From Ascidia mentula (lineage: Eukaryota; Chordata; Ascidiacea; Phlebobranchia; Ascidiidae), in assembly GCA_947561715.1 (NCBI GenBank), contig OX387200.1, positions 3,164,501-3,228,500 of the forward strand: DNA of 64,000 bases, in the 5' to 3' direction. The stretch's first letter is position 1, and each line of letters starts with the position of its first letter. The position numbers were made by a program, and so were the translations under genes. Below the pieces are notes generated by a model. The model searched no databases, was not told the DNA's origin, and was given only the letters and a program-made list of their open reading frames with translations. This document shows positions 1-64,000 of this stretch, in pieces.

Positions 1-76
1 GAACCATCGTTGTTCGTGCAATTGGTACTTTGAGGTCCACAGGCAACAGCTGTTCCATTCAGGCATTCGTCGATGT
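1..76 (-). CDS. Partial cbEGF exon at the left window edge
   Basis: Only the upstream 76 nt of a standard exon are present, from the acceptor junction at 76/77 to the window edge. They encode D1 through about residue 25, including the first three Cys and both N-glycosylation sequons. The gene continues beyond position 1, so this is not its 3' end. Confidence 0.9.
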
Positions 77-3000
77 CTAAAATCAAGGAAAGTTTTCAAT
101 TACGAATCCACATACGATCCATTTCAACTGAAAATGAACAAAGCTCTTACCAACGCAATTTCCATTTGTATCTTGGAATCCAACGTTACAATCACAAGTG
201 TATGAACCATCGTTGTTCGTACAATTGGTACTTTGAGGTCCACAGGCAACAGCTGTTCCATTCAGGCATTCGTCGATATCTAAAGTCATGGAATGTTTTT
301 ACAATTACGAATGCATACATAATCTTACATTTCAACTGAAAATGAACAACGCTCTTACCAGCGCATTTTCCATTTTTCACTTGGAATCCAACGTTACAAT
401 CACAAGTGTATGAACCATCGTTGTTCGTGCAATTGGTACTTTGAGGTCCACAGGCAACAGCTGTTCCATTCAGGCATTCGTCGATGTCTAAAATCAAGGA
501 AAGTTTTCAATTACGAATCCACATACGATCCATTTCAACTGAAAATGAACAAAGCTCTTACCAACGCAATTTCCATTTGTATCTTGGAATCCAACGTTAC
601 AATCACAAGTGTATGAACCATCGTTGTTCGTGCAATTGGTACTTTGAGGTCCACAGGCAACAGCTGTTCCATTCAGGCATTCGTCGATGTCTAAAATCAA
701 GGAAAGTTTTCAATTACGAATCCACATACGATCCATTTCAACTGAAAATGAACAATTCTCTTACCAACGCAATTTCCATTTGTATCTTGGAATCCAACGT
801 TACAATCACAAGTGTATGAACCATCGTTGTTCGTGCAATTGGTACTTTGAGGTCCACAGGCAACAGCTGTTCCATTCAGGCATTCGTCGATGTCTAAAAT
901 CAAGGAAAGTTTTACATTACGAATCCATATATGATCCATTTCAGCTGAAAATGAACAACGCTCTTACCAACGCAATTTCCATTTGTATCTCGGAATCCAA
1001 CGTTACAATCACAAGTGTATGAACCATCGTTGTTCGTGCAATTTGTACTTTGAGGTCCACAGGCAACAGCTGTTCCATTCAGGCATTCGTCGATGTCTAA
1101 AATCATGGAATGATTTTACAATTACGAATGCATGCATGATCTTACATTTCAACGAAAAATGAACAACGCTCTTACCAACGCAATTTCCATTTGTATCTTG
1201 GAATCCAACGATACAATCACAAGTGTATGAACCATCGTTGTTCGTGCAATTGGTACTTTGAGGTCCACAGGCAACAGCTGTTCCATTCAGGCATTCGTCG
1301 ATGTCTAAAATCATGGAATGATTTTACAATTACGAATGCATGCATGATCTTACATTTCAACTGAAAATGAACAACGCTCTTACCAACGCAATTTCCATTT
1401 GTATCTTGGAATCCAACGTTACAATCACAAGTGTATGAACCATCGTTGTTCGTGCAATTGGTACTTTGAGGTCCACAGGCAACAGCTGTTCCATTCAGGC
1501 ATTCGTCGATGTCTAAAATCATGAAATATTTTCACAATTACGAATGCATGCATGATCTTACATTTCAACTGAAAATGAACAACGCTCTTACCAACGCAAT
1601 TTCCATTTGTATCTTGGAATCCAACGTTACAATCACAAGTGTATGAACCATCGTTGTTCGTGCAATTGGTACTTTGAGGTCCACAGGCAACAGCTGTTCC
1701 ATTCAGGCATTCGTCGATGTCTAAAATCATGGAAAGTTTTACATTACGAATCCATATATGATCCATTTCAACTGAAAATGAACAACGCTCTTACCAACGC
1801 AATTTCCATTTGTATCTTGGAATCCAACGTTACAATCACAAGTGTATGAACCATCGTTGTTCGTGCAATTGGTACTTTGAGGTCCACAGGCAACAGCTGT
1901 TCCATTCAGGCATTCGTCGATGTCTAATATCATGGAATGTTTTACAATTACGCATCCATATTTGAACCATTTCAACTGAAAATGAACAACGCTCTTACCA
2001 ACGCAATTTCCATTTGTATCTTGGAATCCAACGTTACAATCACAAGTGTATGAACCATCGTTGTTCGTGCAATTGGTACTTTGAGGTCCACAGGCAACAG
2101 CTGTTCCATTCAGGCATTCGTCGATGTCTAAAATCATGGAATGTTTAACAATTACGTATCCATATATGAACCATTTCAACTGAAAATGAACAACGCTCTT
2201 ACCAACGCAATTTCCATTTGTATCTTGGAATCCAACATTACAATCACAAGTGTATGAACCATCGTTGTTCGTGCAATTGGTACTTTGAGGTCCACAGGCA
2301 ACAGCTGTTCCATTCAGGCATTCGTCGATGTCTAAAATCATGGAAAGTTTTTGCAATTACGAATGCATGCATGATCTTACATTTCAACAGAAATTGGACA
2401 ACGCCCTTACCAACGCAATTTCCATTAGTATCTTGGAATCCAACTTTACAATCACAAGTGTATGAACCATCGTTGTTCGTGCAATTGGTACTTTGAGGTC
2501 CACAGGCAACAGCTGTTCCATTCAGGCATTCGTCGATGTCTAAAATCATGGAAAGTTTTTACAATTACGAATGCATACATGATCTTACATTTCAACTGAA
2601 AATGAACAACGCTCTTACCAACGCAATTTCCATTTGTATCTTGGAATCCAACGTTACAATCACAAGTGTATGAACCATCGTTGTTCGTGCAATTGGTACT
2701 TTGAGGTCCACAGGAAACAGCTGTTCCATCCAGGCATTCGTCGATGTCTAAAATCATGGAAAGTTTCACAATTACGAATCCATATATGATCTTACATTTC
2801 AACAGAAAATGAACAACGCTCTTACCAACGCAATTTCCATTTGTATCTTGGAATCCAACGTTACAATCACAAGTGTATGAACCATCGTTGTTCGTGCAAT
2901 TGGTACTTTGAGGTCCACAGGCAACAGCTGTTCCATTCAGGCATTCGTCGATGTCTAAAATCATGGAATGTTTTTACAATTACGAATTCATACATGATCC

Positions 3001-6000
3001 ATTTCAACTGAAAATGAACAAAGCTCTTACCAACGCAATTTCCATTTGTATCTTGGAATCCAACGTTACAATCACAAGTGTATGAACCATCGTTGTTCGT
3101 GCAATTGGTACTTTGAGGTCCACAGGCAACAGCTGTTCCATTCAGGCATTCGTCGATGTCTAAAATCAAGGAAAGTTTTCAATTACGAATCCACATACGA
3201 TCCATTTCAACTGAAAATGAACAATTCTCTTACCAACGCAATTTCCATTTGTATCTTGGAATCCAACGTTACAATCACAAGTGTATGAACCATCGTTGTT
3301 CGTGCAATTGGTACTTTGAGGTCCACAGGCAACAGCTGTTCCATTCAGGCATTCGTCGATGTCTAAAATCAAGGAAAGTTTTACATTACGAATCCATATA
3401 TGATCCATTTCAGCTGAAAATGAACAACGCTCTTACCAACGCAATTTCCATTTGTATCTTGGAATCCAACGTTACAATCACAAGTGTATGAACCATCGTT
3501 GTTCGTGCAATTGGTACTTTGAGGTCCACAGGCAACAGCTGTTCCATTCAGGCATTCGTCGATGTCTAAAATCAAGGAAAGTTTTCAATTACGAATCCAC
3601 ATACGATCCATTTCAACTGAAAATGAACAATTCTCTTACCAACGCAATTTCCATTTGTATCTTGGAATCCAACGTTACAATCACAAGTGTATGAACCATC
3701 GTTGTTCGTGCAATTGGTACTTTGAGGTCCACAGGCAACAGCTGTTCCATTCAGGCATTCGTCGATGTCTAAAATCAAGGAAAGTTTTACATTACGAATC
3801 CATATATGATCCATTTCAGCTGAAAATGAACAACGCTCTTACCAACGCAATTTCCATTTGTATCTCGGAATCCAACGTTACAATCACAAGTGTATGAACC
3901 ATCGTTGTTCGTGCAATTTGTACTTTGAGGTCCACAGGCAACAGCTGTTCCATTCAGGCATTCGTCGATGTCTAAAATCATGGAATGATTTTACAATTAC
4001 GAATGCATGCATGATCTTACATTTCAACGAAAAATGAACAACGCTCTTACCAACGCAATTTCCATTTGTATCTTGGAATCCAACGATACAATCACAAGTG
4101 TATGAACCATCGTTGTTCGTGCAATTGGTACTTTGAGGTCCACAGGCAACAGCTGTTCCATTCAGGCATTCGTCGATGTCTAAAATCATGGAATGATTTT
4201 ACAATTACGAATGCATGCATGATCTTACATTTCAACTGAAAATGAACAACGCTCTTACCAACGCAATTTCCATTTGTATCTTGGAATCCAACGTTACAAT
4301 CACAAGTGTATGAACCATCGTAGTTCGTGCAATTGGTACTTTGAGGTCCACAGGCAACAGCTGTTCCATTCAGGCATTCGTCGATGTCTAAAATCATGAA
4401 ATATTTTCACAATTACGAATGCATGCATGATCTTACATTTCAACTGAAAATGAACAACGCTCTTACCAACGCAATTTCCATTTGTATCTTGGAATCCAAC
4501 GTTACAATCACAAGTGTATGAACCATCGTTGTTCGTGCAATTGGTACTTTGAGGTCCACAGGCAACAGCTGTTCCATTCAGGCATTCGTCGATGTCTAAA
4601 ATCAAGGAAAGTTTTCAATTACGAATCCACATATGATCCATTTCAACTGAAAATGAACAATTCTCTTACCAACGCAATTTCCATTTGTATCTTGGAATCC
4701 AACGTTACAATCACAAGTGTATGAACCATCGTTGTTCGTGCAATTGGTACTTTGAGGTCCACAGGCAACAGCTGTTCCATTCAGGCATTCGTCGATGTCT
4801 AAAATCATGGAATGATTTTACAATTACGAATGCATGCATGATCTCACATTTCAACTGAAAATGAACAACGCTCTTACCAACGCAATTTCCATTTGTATCT
4901 TGGAATCCAACGATACAATCACAAGTGTATGAACCATCGTTGTTCGTGCAATTGGTACTTTGAGGTCCACAGGCAACAGCTGTTCCATTCAGGCATTCGT
5001 CGATGTCTAAAATCATGGAATGATTTTACAATTACGAATGCATGCATGATCTTACATTTCAACTGAAAATGAACAACGCTCTTACCAACGCAATTTCCAT
5101 TTGTATCTTGGAATCCAACGTTACAATCACAAGTGTATGAACCATCGTAGTTCGTGCAATTGGTACTTTGAGGTCCACAGGCAACAGCTGTTCCATTCAG
5201 GCATTCGTCGATGTCTAAAATCATGAAATATTTTCACAATTACGAATGCATGCATGATCTTACATTTCAACTGAAAATGAACAACGCTCTTACCAACGCA
5301 ATTTCCATTTGTATCTTGGAATCCAACGTTACAATCACAAGTGTATGAACCATCGTTGTTCGTGCAATTGGTACTTTGAGGTCCACAGGCAACAGCTGTT
5401 CCATTCAGGCATTCGTCGATGTCTAAAATCAAGGAAAGTTTTCAATTACGAATCCACATATGATCCATTTCAACTGAAAATGAACAATTCTCTTACCAAC
5501 GCAATTTCCATTTGTATCTTGGAATCCAACGTTACAATCACAAGTGTATGAACCATCGTTGTTCGTGCAATTGGTACTTTGAGGTCCACAGGCAACAGCT
5601 GTTCCATTCAGGCATTCGTCGATGTCTAAAATCAAGGAAAGTTTTACATTACGAATCCATATATGATCCATTTCAGCTGAAAATGAACAACGCTCTTACC
5701 AACGCAATTTCCATTTGTATCTTGGAATCCAACGTTACAATCACAAGTGTATGAACCATCGTTGTTCGTGCAATTGGTACTTTGAGGTCCACAGGCAACA
5801 GCTGTTCCATTCAGGCATTCGTCGATGTCTAAAATCAAGGAAAGTTTTACATTACGAATCCATATATGATCCATTTCAGCTGAAAATGAACAACGCTCTT
5901 ACCAACGCAATTTCCATTTGTATCTCGGAATCCAACGTTACAATCACAAGTGTATGAACCATCGTTGTTCGTGCAATTTGTACTTTGAGGTCCACAGGCA

Positions 6001-9000
6001 ACAGCTGTTCCATTCAGGCATTCGTCGATGTCTAAAATCATGGAATGATTTTACAATTACGAATGCATGCATGATCTTACATTTCAACGAAAAATGAACA
6101 ACGCTCTTACCAACGCAATTTCCATTTGTATCTTGGAATCCAACGATACAATCACAAGTGTATGAACCATCGTTGTTCGTGCAATTGGTACTTTGAGGTC
6201 CACAGGCAACAGCTGTTCCATTCAGGCATTCGTCGATGTCTAAAATCATGGAATGATTTTACAATTACGAATGCATGCATGATCTTACATTTCAACTGAA
6301 AATGAACAACGCTCTTACCAACGCAATTTCCATTTGTATCTTGGAATCCAACGTTACAATCACAAGTGTATGAACCATCGTAGTTCGTGCAATTGGTACT
6401 TTGAGGTCCACAGGCAACAGCTGTTCCATTCAGGCATTCGTCGATGTCTAAAATCATGAAATATTTTCACAATTACGAATGCATGCATGATCTTACATTT
6501 CAACTGAAAATGAACAACGCTCTTACCAACGCAATTTCCATTTGTATCTTGGAATCCAACGTTACAATCACAAGTGTATGAACCATCGTTGTTCGTGCAA
6601 TTGGTACTTTGGGGTCCACAGGCAACAGCTGTTCCATTCAGGCATTCGTCGATGTCTAAAATCATGGAAAGTTTTACATTACGAATCCATATATGATCCA
6701 TTTCAACTGAAAATGAACAACGCTCTTACCAACGCAATTTCCATTTGTATCTTGGAATCCAACGTTACAATCACAAGTGTATGAACCATCGTTGTTCGTG
6801 CAATTGGTACTTTGAGGTCCACAGGCAACAGCTGTTCCATTCAGGCATTCGTCGATGTCTAAAATCATGGAAAGTTTTACATTACGAATCCATATATGAT
6901 CCATTTCAACTGAAAATGAACAACGCTCTTACCAACGCAATTTCCATTTGTATCTTGGAATCCAACGTTACAATCACAAGTGTATGAACCATCGTTGTTC
7001 GTGCAATTGGTACTTTGAGGTCCACAGGCAACAGCTGTTCCATTCAGGCATTCGTCGATGTCTAAAATCATGAAATATTTTCACAATTACGAATGCATGC
7101 ATGATCTTACATTTCAACTGAAAATGAACAACGCTCTTACCAACGCAATTTCCATTTGTATCTTGGAATCCAACGTTACAATCACAAGTGTATGAACCAT
7201 CGTTGTTCGTACAATTGGTACTTTGAGGTCCACAGGCAACAGCTGTTCCATTCAGGCATTCGTCGATATCTAAAGTCATGGAATGTTTTTACAATTACGA
7301 ATGCATACATAATCTTACATTTCAACTGAAAATGAACAACGCTCTTACCAGCGCATTTTCCATTTTTCACTTGGAATCCAACGTTACAATCACAAGTGTA
7401 TGAACCATCGTTGTTCGTGCAATTGGTACTTTGAGGTCCACAGGCAACAGCTGTTCCATTCAGGCATTCGTCGATGTCTAAAATCAAGGAAAGTTTTCAA
7501 TTACGAATCCACATACGATCCATTTCAACTGAAAATGAACAAAGCTCTTACCAACGCAATTTCCATTTGTATCTTGGAATCCAACGTTACAATCACAAGT
7601 GTATGAACCATCGTTGTTCGTGCAATTGGTACTTTGAGGTCCACAGGCAACAGCTGTTCCATTCAGGCATTCGTCGATGTCTAAAATCAAGGAAAGTTTT
7701 CAATTACGAATCCACATACGATCCATTTCAACTGAAAATGAACAATTCTCTTACCAACGCAATTTCCATTTGTATCTTGGAATCCAACGTTACAATCACA
7801 AGTGTATGAACCATCGTTGTTCGTGCAATTGGTACTTTGAGGTCCACAGGCAACAGCTGTTCCATTCAGGCATTCGTCGATGTCTAAAATCAAGGAAAGT
7901 TTTACATTACGAATCCATATATGATCCATTTCAGCTGAAAATGAACAACGCTCTTACCAACGCAATTTCCATTTGTATCTCGGAATCCAACGTTACAATC
8001 ACAAGTGTATGAACCATCGTTGTTCGTGCAATTTGTACTTTGAGGTCCACAGGCAACAGCTGTTCCATTCAGGCATTCGTCGATGTCTAAAATCATGGAA
8101 TGATTTTACAATTACGAATGCATGCATGATCTTACATTTCAACGAAAAATGAACAACGCTCTTACCAACGCAATTTCCATTTGTATCTTGGAATCCAACG
8201 ATACAATCACAAGTGTATGAACCATCGTTGTTCGTGCAATTGGTACTTTGAGGTCCACAGGCAACAGCTGTTCCATTCAGGCATTCGTCGATGTCTAAAA
8301 TCATGGAATGATTTTACAATTACGAATGCATGCATGATCTTACATTTCAACTGAAAATGAACAACGCTCTTACCAACGCAATTTCCATTTGTATCTTGGA
8401 ATCCAACGTTACAATCACAAGTGTATGAACCATCGTTGTTCGTGCAATTGGTACTTTGAGGTCCACAGGCAACAGCTGTTCCATTCAGGCATTCGTCGAT
8501 GTCTAAAATCATGAAATATTTTCACAATTACGAATGCATGCATGATCTTACATTTCAACTGAAAATGAACAACGCTCTTACCAACGCAATTTCCATTTGT
8601 ATCTTGGAATCCAACGTTACAATCACAAGTGTATGAACCATCGTTGTTCGTGCAATTGGTACTTTGAGGTCCACAGGCAACAGCTGTTCCATTCAGGCAT
8701 TCGTCGATGTCTAAAATCATGGAAAGTTTTACATTACGAATCCATATATGATCCATTTCAACTGAAAATGAACAACGCTCTTACCAACGCAATTTCCATT
8801 TGTATCTTGGAATCCAACGTTACAATCACAAGTGTATGAACCATCGTTGTTCGTGCAATTGGTACTTTGAGGTCCACAGGCAACAGCTGTTCCATTCAGG
8901 CATTCGTCGATGTCTAATATCATGGAATGTTTTACAATTACGCATCCATATTTGAACCATTTCAACTGAAAATGAACAACGCTCTTACCAACGCAATTTC

Positions 9001-54000: not shown

Positions 54001-57000
54001 ATCCAACGTTACAATCACAAGTGTATGAACCATCGTTGTTCGTGCAATTGGTACTTTGAGGTCCACAGGCAACAGCTGTTCCATTCAGGCATTCGTCGAT
54101 GTCTAAAATCATGGAATGATTTTACAATTACGAATGCATGCATGATCTTACATTTCAACTGAAAATGAACAACGCTCTTACCAACGCAATTTCCATTTGT
54201 ATCTTGGAATCCAACGTTACAATCACAAGTGTATGAACCATCGTTGTTCGTGCAATTGGTACTTTGAGGTCCACAGGCAACAATTGTTCCATTTAGGCAT
54301 TCGTCGATGTCTAACATCATGGAAAGTTTTACATTACGAATCCATATATGATCCATTTCAACTGAAAATGAACAACGCTCTTACCAACGCAATTTCCATT
54401 TGTATCTTGGAATCCAACGTTACAATCACAAGTGTATGAACCATCGTTGTTCGTGCAATTGGTACTTTGAGGTCCACAGGCAACAGCTGTTCCATTCAGG
54501 CATTCGTCGATGTCTAACATCATGGAATGATTTTACAATTACGAATGCATGCATGATCTTACATTTCAACTGAAAATGAACAACGCTCTTACCAACGCAA
54601 TTTCCATTTGTATCTTGGAATCCAACGTTACAATCACAAGTGTATGAACCATCGTTGTTCGTGCAATTGGTACTTTGAGGTCCACAGGCAACAGCTGTTC
54701 CATTCAGGCATTCGTCGATGTCTAAAATCATGGAATGATTTTGCAATTACGAATGCATGCATGATCATACATTTCAACTGAAAGTGAACAACGCTCTTAC
54801 CAACGCAATTTCCATTTGTATCTTGGAATCCAACGTTACAATCACAAGTGTATGAACCATCGTTGTTCGTGCAATTGGTACTTTGAGGTCCACAGGCAAC
54901 AGCTGTTCCATTCAGGCATTCGTCGATGTCTAAAATCATGGAATGATTTTACAATTACGAATGCATGCATGATCTTACATTTCAACTGAAAATGAACAAC
55001 GCTCTTACCAACGCAATTTCCATTTGTATCTTGGAATCCAACGTTACAATCACAAGTGTATGAACCATCGTTGTTCGTGCAATTGGTACTTTGAGGTCCA
55101 CAGGCAACAGCTGTTCCATTCAGGCATTCGTCGATGTCTAACATCATGGAAAGTTTTACATTACGAATCCATATATGATCCATTTCAACTGAAAATGAAC
55201 AACGCTCTTACCAACGCAATTTCCATTTGTATCTTGGAATCCAACGTTACAATCACAAGTGTATGAACCATCGTTGTTCGTGCAATTGGTACTTTGAGGT
55301 CCACAGGCAACAGCTGTTCCATTCAGGCATTCGTCGATGTCTAAAATCATAGAATGATTTTGCAATTACGAATGCATGCATGATCTTACATTTCAACTGA
55401 AAATGAACAACGCTCTTACCAACGCAATTTCCATTTGTATCTTGGAATCCAACGTTACAATCACAAGTGTATGAACCATCGTTGTTCGTGCAATTGGTAC
55501 TTTGAGGTCCACAGGCAACAGCTGTTCCATTCAGGCATTCGTCGATGTCTAAGATCATGGAATGATTTTACAATTACGAATGCATGCATAATCTTACATT
55601 TCAACTGAAAATGAACAACGCTCTTACCAACGCAATTTCCATTTGTATCTTGGAATCCAACGTTACAATCACAAGTGTATGAACCATCGTTGTTCGTGCA
55701 ATTGGTACTTTGAGGTCCACAGGCAACAATTGTTCCATTTAGGCATTCGTCGATGTCTAATATCATAGAAAGTTTTACATTACGAATCCATATATGATCC
55801 ATTTCAACTGAAAATGAACAACGCTCTTACCAACGCAATTTCCATTTGTATCTTGGAATCCAACGTTACAATCACAAGTGTATGAACCATCGTTGTTCGT
55901 GCAATTGGTACTTTGAGGTCCACAGGCAACAGCTGTTCCATTCAGGCATTCGTCGATGTCTAACATCATGGAAAGTTTTACATTACGAATCCATATATGA
56001 TCCATTTCAACTGAAAATGAACAACGCTCTTACCAACGCAATTTCCATTTGTATCTTGGAATCCAACGTTACAATCACAAGTGTATGAACCATCGTTGTT
56101 CGTGCAATTGGTACTTTGAGGTCCACAGGCAACAGCTGTTCCATTCAGGCATTCGTCGATGTCTAAAATCATGGAATGATTTTGCAATTACGAATGCATG
56201 CATGATCTTACATTTCAACTGAAAATGAACAACGCTCTTACCAACGCAATTTCCATTTGTATCTTGGAATCCAACGTTACAATCACAAGTGTATGAACCA
56301 TCGTTGTTCGTGCAATTGGTACTTTGAGGTCCACAGGCAACAGCTGTTCCATTCAGGCATTCGTCGATGTCTAAAATCATGGAATGATTTTACAATTACG
56401 AATGCATGCATGATCTTACATTTCAACTGAAAATGAACAACGCTCTTACCAACGCAATTTCCATTTGTATCTTGGAATCCAACGTTACAATCACAAGTGT
56501 ATGAACCATCGTTGTTCGTGCAATTGGTACTTTGAGGTCCACAGGCAACAGCTGTTCCATTCAGGCATTCGTCGATGTCTAAAATCATGAAAAGTTTTAC
56601 ATTACGAATCCATATATGATCCATTTCAACTGAAAATGAACAACGCTCTTACCAACGCAATTTCCATTTGTATCTTGGAATCCAACGTTACAATCACAAG
56701 TGTATGAACCATCGTTGTTCGTGCAATTGGTACTTTGAGGTCCACAGGCAACAGCTGTTCCATTCAGGCATTCGTCGATGTCTAAAATCATAGAATGATT
56801 TTGCAATTACGAATGCATGCATGATCTTACATTTCAACTGAAAATGAACAACGCTCTTACCAACGCAATTTCCATTTGTATCTTGGAATCCAACGTTACA
56901 ATCACAAGTGTATGAACCATCGTTGTTCGTGCAATTGGTACTTTGAGGTCCACAGGCAACAGCTGTTCCATTCAGGCATTCGTCGATGTCTAAAATCATG

Positions 57001-60000
57001 GAATGATTTTACAATTACGAATGCATGCATGATCTTACATTTCAACTGAAAATGAACAACGCTCTTACCAACGCAATTTCCATTTGTATCTTGGAATCCA
57101 ACGTTACAATCACAAGTGTATGAACCATCGTTGTTCGTGCAATTGGTACTTTGAGGTCCACAGGCAACAGCTGTTCCATTCAGGCATTCGTCGATGTCTA
57201 AAATCATGAAAAGTTTTACATTACGAATCCATATATGATCCATTTCAACTGAAAATGAACAACGCTCTTACCAACGCAATTTCCATTTGTATCTTGGAAT
57301 CCAACGTTACAATCACAAGTGTATGAACCATCGTTGTTCGTGCAATTGGTACTTTGAGGTCCACAGGCAACAGCTGTTCCATTCAGGCATTCGTCGATGT
57401 CTAAAATCATAGAATGATTTTGCAATTACGAATGCATGCATGATCTTACATTTCAACTGAAAATGAACAACGCTCTTACCAACGCAATTTCCATTTGTAT
57501 CTTGGAATCCAACGTTACAATCACAAGTGTATGAACCATCGTTGTTCGTGCAATTGGTACTTTGAGGTCCACAGGCAACAGCTGTTCCATTCAGGCATTC
57601 GTCGATGTCTAAAATCATAGAATGATTTTGCAATTACGAATGCATGCATGATCTTACATTTCAACTGAAAATGAACAACGCTCTTACCAACGCAATTTCC
57701 ATTTGTATCTTGGAATCCAACGTTACAATCACAAGTGTATGAACCATCGTTGTTCGTGCAATTGGTACTTTGAGGTCCACAGGCAACAGCTGTTCCATTC
57801 AGGCATTCGTCGATGTCTAAAATCATGGAATGATTTTACAATTACGAATGCATGCATGATCTTACATTTCAACTGAAAATGAACAACGCTCTTACCAACG
57901 CAATTTCCATTTGTATCTTGGAATCCAACGTTACAATCACAAGTGTATGAACCATCGTTGTTCGTGCAATTGGTACTTTGAGGTCCACAGGCAACAGCTA
58001 TTCCATTCAGGCATTCGTCGATGTCTAAAATCATGGAATATTTTTGCAATTACGAATGCATACATGATCTTTCATTTCAACCGAAAATGAACAACGCTCT
58101 TACCAACGCAATTTCCATTTATATCTTGGAATCCAACGTTACAATCACAAGTGTATGAACCATCGTTGTTCGTGCAATTGGTACTTTGAGGTCCACAGGC
58201 AACAGCTGTTCCATTCAGGCATTCGTCGATGTCTAAAATCATGGAATGATTTCACAATTACGAATGCATGCATGATCTTACATTTCAACTGAAAATGAAC
58301 AACGCTCTTACCAACGCAATTTCCATTTGTATCTTGGAATCCAACGTTACAATCACAAGTGTATGAACCATCGTTGTTCGTGCAATTGGTACTTTGAGGT
58401 CCACAGGCAACAGCTGTTCCATTCAGGCATTCGTCGATGTCTAACATCATGGAAAGTTTTACATTACGAATCCATATATGATCCATTTCAACTGAAAATG
58501 AACAACGCTCTTACCAACGCAATTTCCATTTGTATCTTGGAATCCAACGTTACAATCACAAGTGTATGAACCATCGTTGTTCGTGCAATTGGTACTTTGA
58601 GGTCCACAGGCAACAGCTGTTCCATTCAGGCATTCGTCGATGTCTAAAATCATAGAATGATTTTGCAATTACGAATGCATGCATGATCTTACATTTCAAC
58701 TGAAAATGAACAACGCTCTTACCAACGCAATTTCCATTTGTATCTTGGAATCCAACGTTACAATCACAAGTGTATGAACCATCGTTGTTCGTGCAATTGG
58801 TACTTTGAGGTCCACAGGCAACAGCTGTTCCATTCAGGCATTCGTCGATGTCTAAAATCATGGAATATTTTTACAATTACGAATGCATGCATGATCTTTC
58901 ATTTCAACTGAAAATGAACAACGCTCTTACCAACGCAATTTCCATTTGTATCTTGGAATCCAACGTTACAATCACAAGTGTATGAACCATCGTTGTTCGT
59001 GCAATTGGTACTTTGAGGTCCACAGGCAACAGCTGTTCCATTCAGGCATTCGTCGATGTCTAAAATCATGGAATATTTTTACAATTACGAATGCATGCAT
59101 GATCTTTCATTTCAACCGAAAATGAACAACGCTCTTACCAACGCAATTTCCATTTGTATCTTGGAATCCAACGTTACAATCACAAGTGTATGAACCATCG
59201 TTGTTCGTGCAATTGGTACTTTGAGGTCCACAGGCAACAGCCGTTCCATTCAGGCATTCGTCGATGTCTAAAATCATGGAATGATTTTACAATTACGAAT
59301 GCATGCATGATCTTACATTTCAACTGAAAATGAACAACGCTCTTACCAACGCAATTTCCATTTGTATCTTGGAATCCAACGTTACAATCACAAGTGTATG
59401 AACCATCGTTGTTCGTGCAATTGGTACTTTGAGGTCCACAGGCAACAGCTGTTCCATTCAGGCATTCGTCGATGTCTAAAATCATGGAATGATTTTACAA
59501 TTACGAATACATGCATGATCTCACATTTCAACTGAAAATGAACAACGCTCTTACCAACGCAATTTCCATTTGTATCTTGGAATCCAACGTTACAATCACA
59601 AGTGTATGAACCATCGTTGTTCGTGCAATTGGTACTTTGAGGTCCACAGGCAACAGCTGTTCCATTCAGGCATTCGTCGATGTCTAACATCATGGAAAGT
59701 TTTACATTACGAATCCATATATGATCCATTTCAACTGAAAATGAACAACGCTCTTACCAACGCAATTTCCATTTGTATCTTGGAATCCAACGTTACAATC
59801 ACAAGTGTATGAACCATCGTTGTTCGTGCAATTGGTACTTTGAGGTCCACAGGCAACAGCTGTTCCATTCAGGCATTCGTCGATGTCTAAAATCATGGAA
59901 TGATTTTGCAATTACGAATGCATGCATGATCTTACATTTCAACTGAAAGTGAACAACGCTCTTACCAACGCAATTTCCATTTGTATCTTGGAATCCAACG

Positions 60001-63000
60001 TTACAATCACAAGTGTATGAACCATCGTTGTTCGTGCAATTGGTACTTTGAGGTCCACAGGCAACAGCTGTTCCATTCAGGCATTCGTCGATGTCTAAAA
60101 TCATGGAATGATTTTACAATTACGAATGCATGCATGATCTTACATTTCAACTGAAAATGAACAACGCTCTTACCAACGCAATTTCCATTTGTATCTTGGA
60201 ATCCAACGTTACAATCACAAGTGTATGAACCATCGTTGTTGGTGCAATTGGTACTTTGAGGTCCACAGGCAACAGCTGTTCCATTCAGGCATTCGTCGAT
60301 GTCTAACATCATGGAAAGTTTTACATTACGAATCCATATATGATCCATTTCAACTGAAAATGAACAACGCTCTTACCAACGCAATTTCCATTTGTATCTT
60401 GGAATCCAACGTTACAATCACAAGTGTATGAACCATCGTTGTTGGTGCAATTGGTACTTTGAGGTCCACAGGCAACAGCTGTTCCATTCAGGCATTCGTC
60501 GATGTCTAACATCATGGAAAGTTTTACATTACGAATCCATATATGATCGATTTCAACTGAAAATGAACAACGCTCTTACCAACGCAATTTCCATTTGTAT
60601 CTTGGAATCCAACGTTACAATCACAAGTGTATGAACCATCGTTGTTCGTGCAATTGGTACTTTGAGGTCCACAGGCAACAGCTGTTCCATTCAGGCATTC
60701 GTCGATGTCTAACATCATGGAAAGTTTTACATTACGAATCCATATATGATCCATTTCAACTGAAAATGAACAACGCTCTTACCAACGCAATTTCCATTTG
60801 TATCTTGGAATCCAACGTTACAATCACAAGTGTATGAACCATCGTTGTTCGTGCAATTGGTACTTTGAGGTCCACAGGCAACAGCTGTTCCATTCAGGCA
60901 TTCGTCGATGTCTAACATCATGGAAAGTTTTACATTACGAATCCATATATGATCCATTTCAACTGAAAATGAACAACGCTCTTACCAACGCAATTTCCAT
61001 TTGTATCTTGGAATCCAACGTTACAATCACAAGTGTATGAACCATCGTTGTTCGTGCAATTGGTACTTTGAGGTCCACAGGCAACAGCTGTTCCATTCAG
61101 GCATTCGTCGATGTCTAAAATCATGGAATGATTTTACAATTACGAATGCATGCATGATCTTACATTTCAACTGAAAATGAACAACGCTCTTACCAACGCA
61201 ATTTCCATTTGGATCTTGGAATCCAACGTTACAATCACAAGTGTATGAACCATCGTTGTTCGTGCAATTGGTACTTTGAGGTCCACAGGCAACAGCTGTT
61301 CCATTCAGGCATTCGTCGATGTCTAACATCATGGAAAGTTTTACATTACGAATCCATATATGATCCATTTCAACTGAAAATGAACAACGCTCTTACCAAC
61401 GCAATTTCCATTTGTATCTTGGAATCCAACGTTACAATCACAAGTGTATGAACCATCGTTGTTCGTGCAATTGGTACTTTGAGGTCCACAGGCAACAGCT
61501 GTTCCATTCAGGCATTCGTCGATGTCTAACATCATGGAAAGTTTTACATTACGAATCCATATATAATCCATTTCAACTGAAAATGAACAACGCTCTTACC
61601 AACGCAATTTCCATTTGTATCTTGGAATCCAACGTTACAATCACAAGTGTATGAACCATCGTTGTTCGTGCAATTGGTACTTTGAGGTCCACAGGCAACA
61701 GCTGTTCCATTCAGGCATTCGTCGATGTCTAAAATCATGGAATGATTTTACAATTACGAATGCATGCATGATCTTACATTTCAACTGAAAATGAACAACG
61801 CTCTTACCAACGCAATTTCCATTTCTATCTTGGAATCCAACGTTACAATCACAAGTGTATGAACCATCGTTGTTCGTGCAATTGGTACTTTGAGGTCCAC
61901 AGGCAACAGCTGTTCCATTCAGGCATTCGTCGATGTCTAACATCATGGGAAGTTTTACATTACGAATCCATATATGATCCATTTCAACTGAAAATGAACA
62001 ACGCTCTTACCAACGCAATTTCCATTTGTATCTTGGAATCCAACGTTACAATCACAAGTGTATGAACCATCGTTGTTCGTGCAATTGGTACTTTGAGGTC
62101 CACAGACAACAGCTGTTCCATTCAGGCATTCGTCGATGTCTAAAATCATGGAATGATTTTACAATTACGAATGCATGCATGATCTTACATTTCAACTGAA
62201 AATGAACAACGCTCTTACCAACGCAATTTCCATTTCTATCTTGGAATCCAACGTTACAATCACAAGTGTATGAACCATCGTTGTTCGTGCAATTGGTACT
62301 TTGAGGTCCACAGGCAACAGCTGTTCCATTCAGGCATTCGTCGATGTCTAAAATCATGGAATGATTTTGCAATTACGAATGCATGCATGATCTTACATTT
62401 CAACTGAAAGTGAACAACGCTCTTACCAACGCAATTTCCATTTGTATCTTGGAATCCAACGTTACAATCACAAGTGTATGAACCATCGTTGTTCGTGCAA
62501 TTGGTACTTTGAGGTCCACAGGCAACAGCTGTTCCATTCAGGCATTCGTCGATGTCTAAAATCATGGAATGATTTTACAATTACGAATGCATGCATGATC
62601 TTACATTTCAACTGAAAATGAACAACGCTCTTACCAACGCAATTTCCATTTGTATCTTGGAATCCAACGTTACAATCACAAGTGTATGAACCATCGTTGT
62701 TGGTGCAATTGGTACTTTGAGGTCCACAGGCAACAGCTGTTCCATTCAGGCATTCGTCGATGTCTAACATCATGGAAAGTTTTACATTACGAATCCATAT
62801 ATGATCCATTTCAACTGAAAATGAACAACGCTCTTACCAACGCAATTTCCATTTGTATCTTGGAATCCAACGTTACAATCACAAGTGTATGAACCATCGT
62901 TGTTGGTGCAATTGGTACTTTGAGGTCCACAGGCAACAGCTGTTCCATTCAGGCATTCGTCGATGTCTAACATCATGGAAAGTTTTACATTACGAATCCA

Positions 63001-63986
63001 TATATGATCGATTTCAACTGAAAATGAACAACGCTCTTACCAACGCAATTTCCATTTGTATCTTGGAATCCAACGTTACAATCACAAGTGTATGAACCAT
63101 CGTTGTTCGTGCAATTGGTACTTTGAGGTCCACAGGCAACAGCTGTTCCATTCAGGCATTCGTCGATGTCTAACATCATGGAAAGTTTTACATTACGAAT
63201 CCATATATGATCCATTTCAACTGAAAATGAACAACGCTCTTACCAACGCAATTTCCATTTGTATCTTGGAATCCAACGTTACAATCACAAGTGTATGAAC
63301 CATCGTTGTTCGTGCAATTGGTACTTTGAGGTCCACAGGCAACAGCTGTTCCATTCAGGCATTCGTCGATGTCTAACATCATGGAAAGTTTTACATTACG
63401 AATCCATATATGATCCATTTCAACTGAAAATGAACAACGCTCTTACCAACGCAATTTCCATTTGTATCTTGGAATCCAACGTTACAATCACAAGTGTATG
63501 AACCATCGTTGTTCGTGCAATTGGTACTTTGAGGTCCACAGGCAACAGCTGTTCCATTCAGGCATTCGTCGATGTCTAAAATCATGGAATGATTTTACAA
63601 TTACGAATGCATGCATGATCTTACATTTCAACTGAAAATGAACAACGCTCTTACCAACGCAATTTCCATTTGGATCTTGGAATCCAACGTTACAATCACA
63701 AGTGTATGAACCATCGTTGTTCGTGCAATTGGTACTTTGAGGTCCACAGGCAACAGCTGTTCCATTCAGGCATTCGTCGATGTCTAACATCATGGAAAGT
63801 TTTACATTACGAATCCATATATGATCCATTTCAACTGAAAATGAACAACGCTCTTACCAACGCAATTTCCATTTGTATCTTGGAATCCAACGTTACAATC
63901 ACAAGTGTATGAACCATCGTTGTTCGTGCAATTGGTACTTTGAGGTCCACAGGCAACAGCTGTTCCATTCAGGCATTCGTCGATGT
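1..63986 (-). CDS. Giant tandem cbEGF-repeat protein, 311 exons, partial at both ends
   Basis: Seen: 310 complete 129-bp exons plus one partial exon, all in the same orientation, each flanked by a 3' splice site ending TTTAG, ATTAG or GTTAG and a 5' splice site reading GTTG|GTAAGAG. Each exon starts with two bases (AC) and ends with one (G), so all splice junctions are phase 1 and every exon adds 43 residues. Numbering from the split-codon Asp: D1-I-D-E-C5, then Cys at 13, 20, 29, 31 and 42. C20-x-N22-x4-Y27-x-C29-x-C31 matches the Asn beta-hydroxylation and calcium consensus of cbEGF domains. C42-V43-D1 leaves a one-residue linker, as in fibrillin-type tandem cbEGF rods. Sequons are N7-G-T and N19-C-T. 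Known of the family: extracellular, calcium-rigidified adhesion or matrix proteins. Inferred: secreted or membrane-anchored matrix megaprotein. Signal peptide and termini are not in the window, so the exact family (fibrillin-like, Notch-like or other) is open. Confidence 0.93.
77..150 (-). other. 74-nt intron class (type example)
   Basis: Donor GTAAGAG, acceptor TTTAG. Length 3n+2, so retention shifts frame, and a stop is met soon after about 20 intron-coded residues. This class, 75 of 310 introns, lacks the UGCAUG hexamer and the internal GTAAGA of the 79-nt class and has ATATATG or ATATGTG-like sequence in their place. It occurs in regions A and C only; region B uses 75-nt introns instead. 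Confidence 0.88.
151..279 (-). CDS. First complete cbEGF exon (type example)
   Basis: Reference exon for the coordinates used here. The donor GTAAGAG lies just below 151 and the acceptor TTTAG just above 279. It differs silently from the consensus in the split Asp codon (GAT instead of GAC) and in Cys20 (TGT). The same variant begins copies 2 and 3 of the region A higher-order repeat at 7141..7269 and 14745..14873, so it marks the repeat boundary. The 14745..14873 copy also has T18 to Ala. Confidence 0.92.
359..487 (-). CDS. cbEGF exon with divergent C-terminal loop (V-K-N-G-K-C-A)
   Basis: Residues 36-43 read Q-V-K-N-G-K-C-A instead of Q-D-T-N-G-N-C-V, so the last loop gains two lysines and the linker residue is Ala. 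Six cysteines and calcium ligands are intact. This is the most divergent exon I saw and recurs only once per region A repeat, at 7349..7477 and 14953..15081. It may be an older unit that escaped homogenisation. Confidence 0.9.
968..1096 (-). CDS. cbEGF exon with Q36R
   Basis: CAA to CGA changes the residue after G-F in the loop between Cys31 and Cys42. The same variant occurs at the equivalent exon ends 3971, 6031, 8086, 10961, 13635, 15690 and 18565, always followed in transcript-upstream order by the N32I exon, so the pair was amplified together. Confidence 0.88.
1176..1304 (-). CDS. cbEGF exon with N32I
   Basis: AAC to ATC gives C-I-V-G-F after Cys31. The adjacent G34-F35, which in cbEGF pairs packs against the neighbouring domain, is unchanged. 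Recurs with the Q36R exon throughout region A, for example at 4051..4179 and 6111..6239; exons 4878..5006 and 12482..12610 have N32I without the Q36R neighbour. Confidence 0.88.
1305..1383 (-). other. 79-nt intron class with two donors and UGCAUG (type example)
   Basis: In RNA sense the normal donor GTAAGAG is at intron bases 1-7. A TTTTCAG tract lies at 17-23, a second donor-like GTAAGA at 31-36, TGCATG at 40-45, and the acceptor GATTTTAG ends at 79. This length class has 175 of 310 introns; most, but not all, keep both the second GTAAGA and TGCATG. Variants with CATACAT or CTTTCAT on the plus strand lose one of them. The branch point is not obvious; no strong CTAAC-type site is visible. Confidence 0.85.
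1339..1344 (-). promoter_or_regulatory. Intronic UGCAUG, possible RBFOX splicing-factor site
   Basis: The minus-strand RNA reads UGCAUG here, four bases downstream of the internal GTAAGA at 1348..1353. UGCAUG is the established target hexamer of the RBFOX (Fox-1) family, and sites downstream of a donor usually favour its use. The hexamer recurs in most 79-nt introns and is absent from the 74 and 75 nt introns. Binding is inference only; the hexamer also belongs to a palindromic ATGCATGCAT stretch and could be chance fixed by amplification. Confidence 0.4.
2128..2202 (-). other. 75-nt stop-free intron class (type example)
   Basis: Normal GTAAGAG donor and TTTAG acceptor. The length is a multiple of three and no stop occurs in the reading frame of the flanking exons, so retention would insert 25 residues between two domains and keep the frame. 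There are 42 introns of this length and 12 of 78 nt with the same property. Neighbouring exons 1923, 2127 and 2331 are linked in this way into one continuous frame. Confidence 0.85.
2411..2539 (-). CDS. cbEGF exon with N32K and a variant donor intron
   Basis: C-K-V-G-F replaces C-N-V-G-F. The donor is GTAAGGG instead of GTAAGAG, and its intron reads AATTTCTGTT in RNA sense. It is the marker that shows segments 19799..20625 and 21242..21653 derive from this part of region A (exons 20210 and 21653 carry the same change). Confidence 0.88.
2619..2747 (-). CDS. cbEGF exon lacking the first N-glycan sequon (N7D, A12S)
   Basis: L-D-G-T replaces L-N-G-T, removing the N7 sequon, and Ser precedes Cys13. 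The second sequon at N19 remains. Recurs at 9609..9737, 17213..17341 and 20290..20418. Confidence 0.88.
4259..4387 (-). CDS. cbEGF exon with N23Y next to the hydroxylation Asn
   Basis: AAC to TAC gives T-N-Y-D-G-S-Y. The ligand and hydroxylation residue N22 is retained, so calcium binding should survive, but the loop gains a second aromatic. Recurs in region A (5214, 6447, 11377, 11991, 12818, 14051, 18981). Confidence 0.88.
7141..14744 (-). repeat. Region A higher-order repeat, copy 2 (37 cbEGF units, 7604 bp)
   Basis: Exon upper ends equal those of copy 1 plus 6990 from 7269 to 11788. Three extra exons follow at 11991, 12199 and 12402. From 12610 to 14665 they equal copy 1 plus 7604. Apart from the 614-bp insertion the copies are almost identical; one seen difference is in the intron after copy 1 exon 4798, where ATCTCACATT (near 4843) reads ATCTTACATT in copy 2. 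Confidence 0.92.
11789..12402 (-). repeat. Three-unit (614 bp) tandem duplication specific to copy 2
   Basis: Exons 11377, 11585 and 11788 recur at 11991, 12199 and 12402 with a constant 614-bp offset, including the N23Y marker of the first of the trio. Copy 1 has the trio once at the corresponding place (4387, 4595, 4798), followed by a separate four-unit duplication shared by both copies. This is a simple signature of unequal exchange between misaligned units. Confidence 0.85.
14745..19669 (-). repeat. Region A higher-order repeat, copy 3 (24 cbEGF units, truncated)
   Basis: Exon upper ends are copy 1 plus 14594 from 14873 to 19392, then 19595. Relative to copy 1, the four-unit (827 bp) internal duplication is single here, so 19189, 19392 and 19595 also align with 5422, 5625 and 5828. 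The copy then stops in the chimeric exon at 19670..19798. Confidence 0.88.
19670..19798 (-). CDS. cbEGF exon at the recombination junction between regions A and B
   Basis: The intron below this exon (19596..19669) matches copy 1 intron 5829..5902. The intron above it (19799..19873) matches copy 1 intron 2128..2202, and homology continues to 20625 versus 2954 (offset 17671). Units far apart in copy 1 are therefore joined through this exon. The exon itself is intact and encodes a standard domain, so the junction keeps frame and splice sites. It lacks the Q36R change found at the corresponding copy 1 exon 5903..6031. Confidence 0.8.
21113..21241 (-). CDS. cbEGF exon with A12D
   Basis: GCC to GAC gives V-D-C before Cys13, adding a negative charge in the first loop. 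Also at exons 24756, 30337 and 37167, always bounded by a 75-nt intron, so it travels with that unit type. Confidence 0.88.
21525..21653 (-). CDS. cbEGF exon with T21R, second sequon lost
   Basis: N-C-R-N-N replaces N-C-T-N-N, which removes the N19 glycosylation sequon while leaving N22. It also carries N32K. T21R recurs at exons 27858, 33439, 40686, 43577 and 43785. Confidence 0.87.
21733..21861 (-). CDS. cbEGF exon with T21G, second sequon lost
   Basis: N-C-G-N-N: two adjacent base changes relative to the consensus ACG (to GGG), probably via the AGG (Arg) variant in the neighbouring unit. Recurs at 28066 and 33647; in the fourth copy the matching exon 43785 has Arg instead. Confidence 0.87.
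22560..22688 (-). CDS. cbEGF exon with V43I linker
   Basis: GTT to ATT in the last full codon changes the single residue linking Cys42 to the next domain's first ligand. Both residues are beta-branched aliphatics, so the rigid linker geometry should be kept. The donor junction reads ATTG|GTAAGAG. Confidence 0.87.
22972..23100 (-). CDS. cbEGF exon with N7K, A10V, A12D
   Basis: The first loop reads L-K-G-T-V-V-D-C. Three replacements sit within six residues, the N7 sequon is lost, and cysteines and ligands are untouched. No second copy was seen in the window, unlike most variants. Confidence 0.88.
24832..24960 (-). CDS. cbEGF exon starting D-F-D-E with T28I
   Basis: The residue between the first two acidic ligands is Phe instead of Ile. 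Its backbone carbonyl, not its side chain, is expected to bind calcium. T28I lies between Y27 and Cys29. Recurs at 30413..30541; exons 27031, 32612, 39859 and 42750 share D-F-D-E but have A12S instead. Confidence 0.88.
25039..25167 (-). CDS. cbEGF exon with N7D
   Basis: L-D-G-T removes the first sequon, with silent changes at A12 and Cys42. The acceptor context above it (TTTGCATGATTTTAG) differs from neighbours by TTGCATG in place of TTCCATG. Copy at 30620..30748. Confidence 0.86.
28557..28685 (-). CDS. cbEGF exon with D24V
   Basis: T-N-N-V-G-S-Y: the acidic residue two after the hydroxylation Asn becomes Val. The consensus C-x-N-x4-Y-x-C-x-C is still met. Copies at exons 34267 and 41302; the fourth copy of the repeat lacks this unit. 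Confidence 0.88.
28761..28889 (-). CDS. cbEGF exon with T18I
   Basis: Q-S-I-N-C replaces Q-S-T-N-C just before the second sequon, which is retained. Copies at exons 34471, 41506 and 44401 make it a reliable marker for the four region B repeat copies. Confidence 0.88.
28969..29097 (-). CDS. cbEGF exon with N32Y
   Basis: C-Y-V-G-F after Cys31. Copies at 34679, 41714 and 44609. The 41586..41714 copy has in addition A12G, not seen elsewhere. Confidence 0.87.
29173..34754 (-). repeat. Region B higher-order repeat, copy 2 (27 cbEGF units, 5582 bp)
   Basis: Exon upper ends: 29301, 29509, 29717, 29925, 30133, 30337, 30541, 30748, 30952, 31160, 31368, 31576, 31784, 31988, 32196, 32404, 32612, 32819, 33023, 33231, 33439, 33647, 33855, 34063, 34267, 34471, 34679. 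The only length difference from copy 1 is one extra base in the intron 33648..33726 (79 nt against 78 nt at 28067..28144), which changes a frame-preserving intron into a frame-shifting one if retained. A few intron substitutions also differ, for example near 26252 versus 31833. Confidence 0.9.
34755..37658 (-). repeat. Region B middle segment with a homogeneous 208-bp run (14 units)
   Basis: Exon upper ends: 34883, 35091, 35299, 35507, 35715, 35923, 36131, 36339, 36547, 36755, 36963, 37167, 37371, 37579. Between 35716 and 36755 five successive 208-bp units are almost identical and share an intron variant (plus-strand CATAGAATGATTTTGC). One of them has a GTGAGAG donor (exon 36211..36339) instead of GTAAGAG. 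The same variant family recurs from 45230 on, where it is scattered among other units. Confidence 0.88.
35379..35507 (-). CDS. cbEGF exon with T28A and T38R
   Basis: S-Y-A-C-D-C and Q-D-R-N-G-N-C. Copies at 41998..42126 and 44893..45021. T38R alone reappears at 61936 and 62347 in region C, either by independent change or by exchange between distant units. Confidence 0.87.
37659..41997 (-). repeat. Region B higher-order repeat, rearranged third copy (21 units)
   Basis: Exon upper ends: 37787, 37995, 38199, 38407, 38615, 38823, 39031, 39235, 39443, 39651, 39859, 40066, 40270, 40478, 40686, 40890, 41098, 41302, 41506, 41714, 41918. The first five units repeat at once (offset 1036 bp: 37787 to 38615 and 38823 to 39651). 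The rest follows the order of copy 2 from 32612 on, but with one unit missing between 40478 and 40890. Confidence 0.87.
41998..45229 (-). repeat. Region B higher-order repeat, rearranged fourth copy (16 units)
   Basis: Exon upper ends: 42126, 42334, 42542, 42750, 42957, 43161, 43369, 43577, 43785, 43989, 44197, 44401, 44609, 44813, 45021, 45229. Units 42334 to 43369 match 39443 to 40478 (offset 2891). The D24V exon present at 28685, 34267 and 41302 is missing here. Units 45021 and 45229 match 35507 and 35715 (offset 9514), so this copy rejoins the middle segment. Confidence 0.87.
45230..49228 (-). repeat. Region C, left segment (19 cbEGF units)
   Basis: Exon upper ends: 45437, 45645, 45853, 46061, 46269, 46477, 46680, 46888, 47096, 47302, 47505, 47713, 47921, 48124, 48332, 48540, 48743, 48946, 49154. 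An acceptor ending ATGTTAG first appears above exon 45437 and stays common to the right edge. The 75 and 78 nt introns of region B are gone; intron lengths are 74, 77 (one, 47097..47173) and 79. Confidence 0.88.
49229..53148 (-). repeat. Region C higher-order repeat, copy 1 (19 units, 3920 bp)
   Basis: Exon upper ends: 49357, 49563, 49766, 49974, 50182, 50385, 50593, 50801, 51009, 51212, 51420, 51628, 51831, 52034, 52242, 52450, 52653, 52861, 53069. Markers shared with copy 2 are the 77-nt intron before exon 49563, the A10I exons 50182 and 51628, and an intron variant with AAAGTGAAC. The offset to copy 2 is 3920 at the left end and 4128 after one unit is added there. Confidence 0.88.
50054..50182 (-). 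CDS. cbEGF exon with A10I
   Basis: N-G-T-I-V-A-C: GCT to ATT needs two changes. Leu6 uses TTA here. The N7 sequon is kept. Copies at 51628, 54310 and 55756 mark the two copies of the 19-unit repeat. Confidence 0.87.
53149..56860 (-). repeat. Region C higher-order repeat, copy 2 (18 units in this span)
   Basis: Exon upper ends: 53277, 53483, 53686, 53894, 54102, 54310, 54513, 54721, 54929, 55137, 55340, 55548, 55756, 55959, 56162, 56370, 56578, 56781. One extra 208-bp unit (exon 53894) relative to copy 1 raises the offset from 3920 to 4128. The acceptor above exon 55548 ends in CTTAG, where the equivalent copy 1 site ends in TTTAG. Confidence 0.88.
57896..58024 (-). CDS. cbEGF exon with T9I, first sequon lost
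   Basis: N-G-I destroys the N7 sequon by one base change (ACA to ATA). It lies at the edge of the divergent patch 58025..59138 and was seen only once. Confidence 0.87.
58104..58232 (-). CDS. cbEGF exon with T38I
   Basis: Q-D-I-N-G-N-C in the last loop. The intron downstream in the transcript (58025..58103) belongs to the CTTTCAT subfamily, in which a TGA follows soon after the donor, so read-through frames from this exon are short. The exon itself is intact. Confidence 0.87.
61194..61322 (-). CDS. cbEGF exon with T38P
   Basis: Q-D-P-N-G-N-C: ACA to CCA. Repeated 2461 bp to the right at 63655..63783. Proline in the turn of the last loop is tolerated in many EGF domains, so the fold is probably kept. 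Confidence 0.87.
62011..62139 (-). CDS. cbEGF exon with A12V
   Basis: V-V-C before Cys13. Seen once. It lies near the left end of copy 2 of the 12-unit repeat, in the last unit of copy 1. Confidence 0.86.
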
Positions 63987-64000
63987 CTAACATCATGGAA
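62219..64000 (-). repeat. Region C 12-unit repeat, copy 2, cut by the window edge (9 units)
   Basis: Exon upper ends: 62347, 62555, 62763, 62966, 63169, 63372, 63575, 63783, 63986. All but the first exon match copy 1 at offset 2461. Exon 62347 carries T38R where exon 59886 does not, so the breakpoint lies at or just above it. The array continues past position 64000, so the 5' end of the gene is further right. Confidence 0.88.
63858..63986 (-). CDS. Rightmost complete cbEGF exon
   Basis: Standard domain with all ligands and both sequons. The acceptor TGTTAG lies just above 63986 and the last 14 bases of the window belong to the preceding intron in the transcript. No signal peptide, start codon context or promoter is near, so the gene continues to the right. 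Confidence 0.9.

Follow-up and report, generated by a model that had tools for sequence, protein, structure and literature searches.

Among the adhesion GPCRs, EMR2 and CD97 carry tandem EGF repeats, five in number, and show force-related activation (PMC8878244, in the part of the text available). The same source, to the same extent, describes ADGRV1 (VLGR1) as a receptor of ~6,300 residues with Calx-beta domains, linked to fibrous inter-membrane links. Drosophila Dumpy, an extracellular protein, exceeds 2 MDa (PMC12456955) and has more than 300 EGF repeats (PMC2930355); the accessible portions of the Dumpy literature give it 78 coding exons, with most of its EGFs interspersed with DPY modules. 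Fibrillin has up to 47 EGF repeats (PMC10336842), and human titin has 363 coding exons (PMC12198301), both as stated in the available excerpts.

The window analysed here, a stretch of 64,000 nucleotides from Ascidia mentula (contig C67, positions 3164501-3228500, in an assembly of 196 Mb in 79 contigs), is very probably the repeat core of one giant predicted adhesion GPCR gene on the minus strand, whose product would extend a tension-activated, calcium-stiffened arm. The predicted gene spans 86,356 bp and comprises 388 coding exons, with a CDS of 50,226 nt encoding 16,741 residues (1.73 MDa); the model includes a start and a signal-peptide-like exon, and its one stop is terminal. From the N- to the C-terminus, the protein would consist of a signal peptide, one EGF domain, 367 near-identical calcium-binding EGF (cbEGF) domains, two diverged cbEGF domains, a SEA-like segment, two further EGF domains, a GAIN/GPS region, seven transmembrane helices and a short tail. 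EGF-like domains in the model total 372, of which 369 are cbEGF. Like ADGRV1 it would be a giant adhesion GPCR whose ectodomain is very long and built of repeats, but ADGRV1 has Calx-beta domains and ~6,300 residues, where the present protein has cbEGF domains and 16,741 predicted residues. Dumpy is likewise a giant extracellular protein with, in the accounts available, more than 300 EGF repeats, yet it has DPY modules, a ZP domain and a role in the matrix, whereas the array described here is uninterrupted cbEGF and is joined to a predicted seven-transmembrane (7TM) receptor. Since Dumpy (>2 MDa) is heavier than the predicted 1.73 MDa, the claim made here is for the largest predicted GPCR and not for the largest EGF-rich protein; we know of no larger predicted GPCR. 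Among the matches listed in a search of open-access literature, covering titles and the beginnings of abstracts, there was no report of a comparable giant or EGF-rich adhesion GPCR or giant EGF protein, and the available portions of PMC13197933, PMC12716839 and PMC2246102 do not mention such a gene.

A single tandem array spans bases 1-64000 of the window, with a period of 208, 310.4 copies and 95% matches (Tandem Repeats Finder). Exon parsing resolved it into 310 complete 129-bp cbEGF exons on the minus strand, 39,990 nt in total, with 76 nt of one further exon at the window edge. The features within the window are as follows:

1..64000, minus strand: inner part of the 367-exon cbEGF array (C67:3164240-3239789), with 310 complete exons.
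63858..63986, minus strand: complete 129-bp cbEGF exon nearest the 5' end of the gene among those in the window, peptide DIDECLNGTAVACGPQSTNCTNNDGSYTCDCNVGFQDTNGNCV.
151..279, minus strand: complete cbEGF exon nearest the 3' end of the gene among those in the window.
280..358, minus strand: example of a 79-bp array intron, GT...AG.
1..76, minus strand: 5' 76 nt of the cbEGF exon C67:3164576-3164448, penultimate in the array and cut at the window edge.

Analysis of the flanks, 80 kb below the window and 120 kb above it in contig coordinates, located both ends of the array beyond the window edges, on one 22.7-Mb contig. In full it contains 367 cbEGF exons in 75,550 bp, from C67:3239789 (the 5' end in gene direction) to 3164240 (the 3' end). 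Over a broader region (C67:2164501-4231000), the array motif was present in one of 20 sampled 1-kb stretches, that at 3232001. The preliminary description had reported 310 complete 129-bp, phase 1-1 exons plus 76 nt, free of stops and frameshifts, which exon parsing reproduced exactly. It had placed the total above 310 with neither end reached; the count within the window stands, and is now extended to 367 with both ends located. Its further proposal, of an animal gene with a giant cbEGF array that ranks with the largest repetitive coding arrays, is supported at the genomic level by 367 in-phase exons and a 16,741-residue model.

The repeat unit is a 129-bp exon encoding one cbEGF domain (consensus DIDECLNGTAVACGPQSTNCTNNDGSYTCDCNVGFQDTNGNCV), followed by an intron of 74-79 bp. 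cbEGF domains have six cysteines and are recognised by a PROSITE-type pattern, D/N-x-D/N-E/Q-C ... C-x-D/N-x4-Y/F-x-C. Exactly six cysteines and this pattern are found in all 367 array units, and all 367 exons are 129 bp long and end in G (phase 1-1), with AG before and GT after and with no stop codon in any. The donor reads GTAAGA at 359 of the 367 exons and the acceptor is AG at every one. Variation is limited: an identical peptide is encoded by 266/367 exons, and the array as a whole holds 33 distinct peptides, 46 distinct exon sequences and 84 distinct introns. It also encodes 719 N-glycosylation sequons. Introns elsewhere in the gene model range from 72 to 588 bp, and those of the 3' part (73-588 bp) are mostly longer than those of the array. 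Within the 79-bp introns, the first ~30 bases are poorer in variants (11 in 30 sites) than the remainder (34 in 49). A loose search for the exon-start motif, allowing up to five mismatches, gave 212 plus-strand matches over 264 kb, mostly within the array and in register with the unit; these are taken as inverted similarity inside the unit. There were no matches to RNA families at gathering score within the 64-kb window.

The distribution of variants along the exon carries the signature of selection. Counted against the exon consensus there are 51 distinct variants, 35 nonsynonymous and 16 synonymous. None of the 35 falls on the 11 residues made up of the six cysteines and five calcium-site residues, where ~27-28% would be expected (P ~1e-5, a value that assumes independent variants, which is not strictly the case as several changes co-travel in one unit type), and the fold is therefore under selection. 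The overall synonymous share (16/51) is not significantly raised (P 0.06-0.33), so that at the sequence level purifying selection is evident for the EGF fold and the calcium site, and not for the surface. Length and divergence were compared between exons and introns: no exon departs from the main length class (0/367), against 163 of 366 introns (main class 79 bp), and any two exons differ on average by 0.93%, any two introns by 4.5-6.8% within the four commonest length classes. Distinct variants per site are similar at synonymous sites (0.59) and in the 79-bp introns (0.57), and fewer in the 74-bp introns (0.28). A chance origin of the array is excluded by its regularity and by this pattern of selection.

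As all array exons share the same phase, both length change and exon skipping preserve the reading frame, and the length of the arm can therefore vary. This bears on the strongest alternative, in which the adhesion GPCR is real and most transcripts skip the symmetric 1-1 exons in large and varying numbers, to yield short arms of differing length. Such an outcome is compatible with the gene model and differs from the preferred reading in the product made. Any skip among the 367 exons would stay in frame, the near-identical 74-79 bp introns could confuse splicing, and ADGRE receptors are known for the alternative use of EGF exons. Set against this, the splice sites counted above are uniform and consensus-like, no mark of exons destined for skipping was noticed in them, and the array is under selection; we consider such a set of shortened products possible but rather unlikely.

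The order of units within the array records how it grew. The 366 full units sort into 120 kinds, and runs of units recur 12 to 71 units apart, shorter ones at distances such as 12, 14, 20 and 27. One run of 37 units is seen again 37 units further on, the two copies showing three differences over 7,604 bp, and another run, of 22 units, occurs in three identical copies. Any two of three zones along the array have only one or two unit kinds in common. These recurring near-identical blocks point to unequal crossing-over as the route of growth, and the block pattern, judged from the unit sequences, is the mark of its repeated occurrence, perhaps with conversion. Near-identical blocks of 7.6 kb also mean that the assembled copy number could be off through misassembly. 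It could accordingly be argued that the real array is far shorter, the assembler having miscounted units across the duplicated 37-unit run and the thrice-identical 22-unit run, or that the copies are mostly untranscribed repeat. The 120 distinct kinds among 366 units, and the three zones with so few kinds in common, speak instead for an array that has been resolved. A satellite or other non-coding repeat is ruled out by the constant exon length, the intact splice sites and the spared residues: it would neither spare cysteines and calcium ligands nor hold exon length constant with introns varying. Taken together, an assembly or satellite effect is improbable.

The preferred reading, of one giant receptor gene, depends on exons lying outside the array, which are listed here in gene order:

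C67:3240408-3240357, minus strand: signal-peptide-like exon MCMLWLVLLLGTVRGLE, whose first ATG is preceded by an in-frame stop; the signal peptide was read by eye.
C67:3239951-3239862, minus strand: N-terminal EGF exon, with a 72-bp intron between it and the start of the array.
C67:3164166 down to a stop near 3154053, minus strand: 19 exons 3' of the array, a hand-chained model.

The signal-peptide-like exon lies 405 bp further upstream of the N-terminal EGF exon, and the junctions are in phase. The 133-residue N-terminal stretch matches Pfam EGF_CA with 58.6 bits (cut-off 27). EGF and cbEGF modules identified by Pfam form a long modular N-terminal region behind the exon read by eye as a signal peptide. 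At the other end, the last array exon is followed by a 73-bp intron and, in phase, by a diverged cbEGF exon (DVDEC), from which the 3' order runs through a second diverged cbEGF exon, the SEA-like segment, two EGF domains, a long region, the GPS and the transmembrane exons to the stop. Assembly of the 3' part was manual, guided by phase, by the domain motifs to be expected and by an ad hoc splice score; the open frame of this part is thus partly a product of construction, as in-phase sites were chosen near expected motifs, but the domain matches are not. Six of the 33 splice sites chosen there are not the best-scoring among those listed: the SEA acceptor (-2.5 vs -1.6), the GPS donor (3.6 vs 5.2), an acceptor in the HRM region, one GAIN acceptor, and the TM4 and TM5 acceptors. 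Exons of the 3' part may therefore be missing or misplaced, and the SEA, GAIN and TM5 exon borders are the weak points of the gene model. The whole reading rests on the linkage of array to receptor, which is a predicted exon chain. Open frames upstream, at C67:3249000-3252000, and downstream, at 3153050-3153529, would bound the giant gene; by eye we take the former to resemble a CNOT10-type protein and the latter another conserved protein.

The 913-residue tail of the model identifies the family. Pfam 7tm_2 matches it with 103.7 bits (cut-off 20.6; E=1.3e-29) over positions 3-250 of 250, GPS with 48 bits (cut-off 22.5; E=1.8e-12), and EGF_CA is also matched. GPS cleavage follows the tripeptide rule HL-S/T, with a Stachel-like sequence after the cut. 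The sequence CNHL-TNFALIV is found at the GPS, before TM1, and its CNHLTNFA is common to ADGRL3 in the PDB alignment. In the PDB, the GPS-7TM part matches 29 distinct sequences, and every one of them is named as an adhesion GPCR or contains one. Judged by the GPS and the 7TM region, the two features that are best defined, the gene is predicted to encode an adhesion GPCR (class B2), an assignment made at family level. Other parts of the tail gave matches below their cut-offs: SEA (E=0.016), GPR128_N (E=2e-5, 25.0 vs 27.2 bits, just below) and the GPR128 GAIN subdomain A (E=0.16), so that of the GAIN domain the GPS alone is recognised. Scanned against Pfam at E<=0.01, neither the 133-residue N-terminus nor the 913-residue tail matched TB (8-Cys), hybrid or Calx-beta domains, the remainder of the protein being the uniform cbEGF array. 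A fibrillin-type matrix protein was rejected as a candidate, since no TB or hybrid domain was matched in these two parts and the model runs into GPS-7TM. An arrangement of two genes, in which the array would encode a secreted matrix protein of the fibrillin or Dumpy kind and the downstream GPCR would be independent of it, is very improbable: long EGF arrays do occur in the fibrillins and Dumpy cited above, and of all acceptors used in the model the weakest by score belongs to the exon that follows the second diverged cbEGF, but the two diverged cbEGF exons are in phase, have AG/GT borders and lead to the SEA, EGF and GPS exons, the 913-residue tail has no Pfam match to ZP any more than to TB or hybrid domains, and no second signal-peptide exon was noticed by eye between the array and the GPCR exons.

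The EGF-TM7 (ADGRE) receptors CD97 and EMR2 share the layout, their tandem cbEGF domains likewise preceding a GPS-bearing region and 7TM. When two adjacent array domains were compared with the PDB, eight sequences matched, the best being CD97/ADGRE5 (E=2.7e-17), followed by EMR2, uromodulin, NELL2 and fibrillin (fibrillin-1, E=4.6e-7). ADGRE5 also matches the 7TM region; in this PDB comparison, however, the best match of GPS-7TM is ADGRL3 (E=1.6e-31), then ADGRG2 and ADGRG6, with ADGRE5 first appearing at row 6 of 29, so the 7TM region is not closest to ADGRE. The likeness to ADGRE is one of layout and EGF-pair match, and this comparison does not support orthology. The two also differ in scale, with 372 EGF-like domains here against five in EMR2 and CD97 (PMC8878244, available part), and in the SEA-like segment found here. 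Fibrillin, to which the array had initially been compared, is similar in its arrays of calcium-binding EGF domains, as are the LTBPs. Fibrillin is not a receptor, its EGF repeats number up to 47 in the excerpt available, and the TB and hybrid domains are unmatched in the tail here; as the gene is predicted to encode an adhesion GPCR, a receptor seated in the membrane, fibrillin is the wrong comparator.

Other loci in the genome carry related domains. Among the matches listed from 150 of 2,964 candidates, C69:2556480-2568284 holds a cbEGF array with a 123-bp period that, in contrast to the array of the window, seems to lack introns, its open frame running through 4,113 residues without a break. 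Strong cbEGF matches with roughly regular spacing were also listed at C2:12711166-12733612, possibly another exon array. At C71:3554701-3604960 and C67:15982294-16019952, cbEGF matches lie on the same strand as a 7tm_2 match and within tens of kb of it, and these are possible further EGF-bearing adhesion GPCRs. In a genome-wide 7tm_2 scan with 150 of 454 candidates scored, the matches listed include dense clusters at C2:415399-1797162 and other places on C2, which suggests an expanded family-B/adhesion receptor set. The 7TM exons of the giant gene itself are absent among the matches listed from that scan.

A mechanism can be proposed for the predicted receptor. A cbEGF domain is 2.5-3.0 nm long, so that 369 of them would form an arm of ~0.9-1.1 micrometres. 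Calcium bound between adjacent cbEGF domains stiffens the chain, as in fibrillin, and may make this one a rod or spring. The N-terminal tip of the arm could then contact a distant ligand, and the receptor, as its cleavage motif suggests, would be self-cleaving at the GPS. Once the arm came under tension, the N-terminal fragment would be detached and the tethered agonist (TNFALIV...) uncovered, and the agonist would activate the seven-helix domain. The array itself would have been grown and kept uniform by block duplication, through unequal crossing-over and perhaps conversion. A long arm on a GPS-cleaved receptor fits a force-released tethered-agonist mechanism, by analogy with EMR2, CD97 and ADGRV1 as portrayed in the accessible part of PMC8878244. 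If the full-length protein is made, it would be the largest known GPCR and among the largest known cell-surface proteins, its micrometre-long, calcium-stiffened and heavily glycosylated arm serving as a long-range tether or force line, with a length that varies between individuals or cells by repeat number or exon skipping; we put this forward tentatively, as a substantial possibility rather than an expectation.

Should it be made as predicted, the protein would be ~2.7 times the length of ADGRV1 (~6,300 residues, PMC8878244), its 372 EGF-like domains would compare with the 'more than 300' of Dumpy (PMC2930355), and its count of 388 coding exons would surpass the 363 of human titin (PMC12198301), each figure for comparison being taken from the available portion of its source. 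It would then provide an extreme natural test of force sensing by adhesion GPCRs, in which the length of the arm sets reach and tension, and a test of the ordered splicing of hundreds of near-identical exons. It would equally be a test of how a protein can be lengthened one domain at a time by unequal crossing-over, with selection keeping every domain functional.
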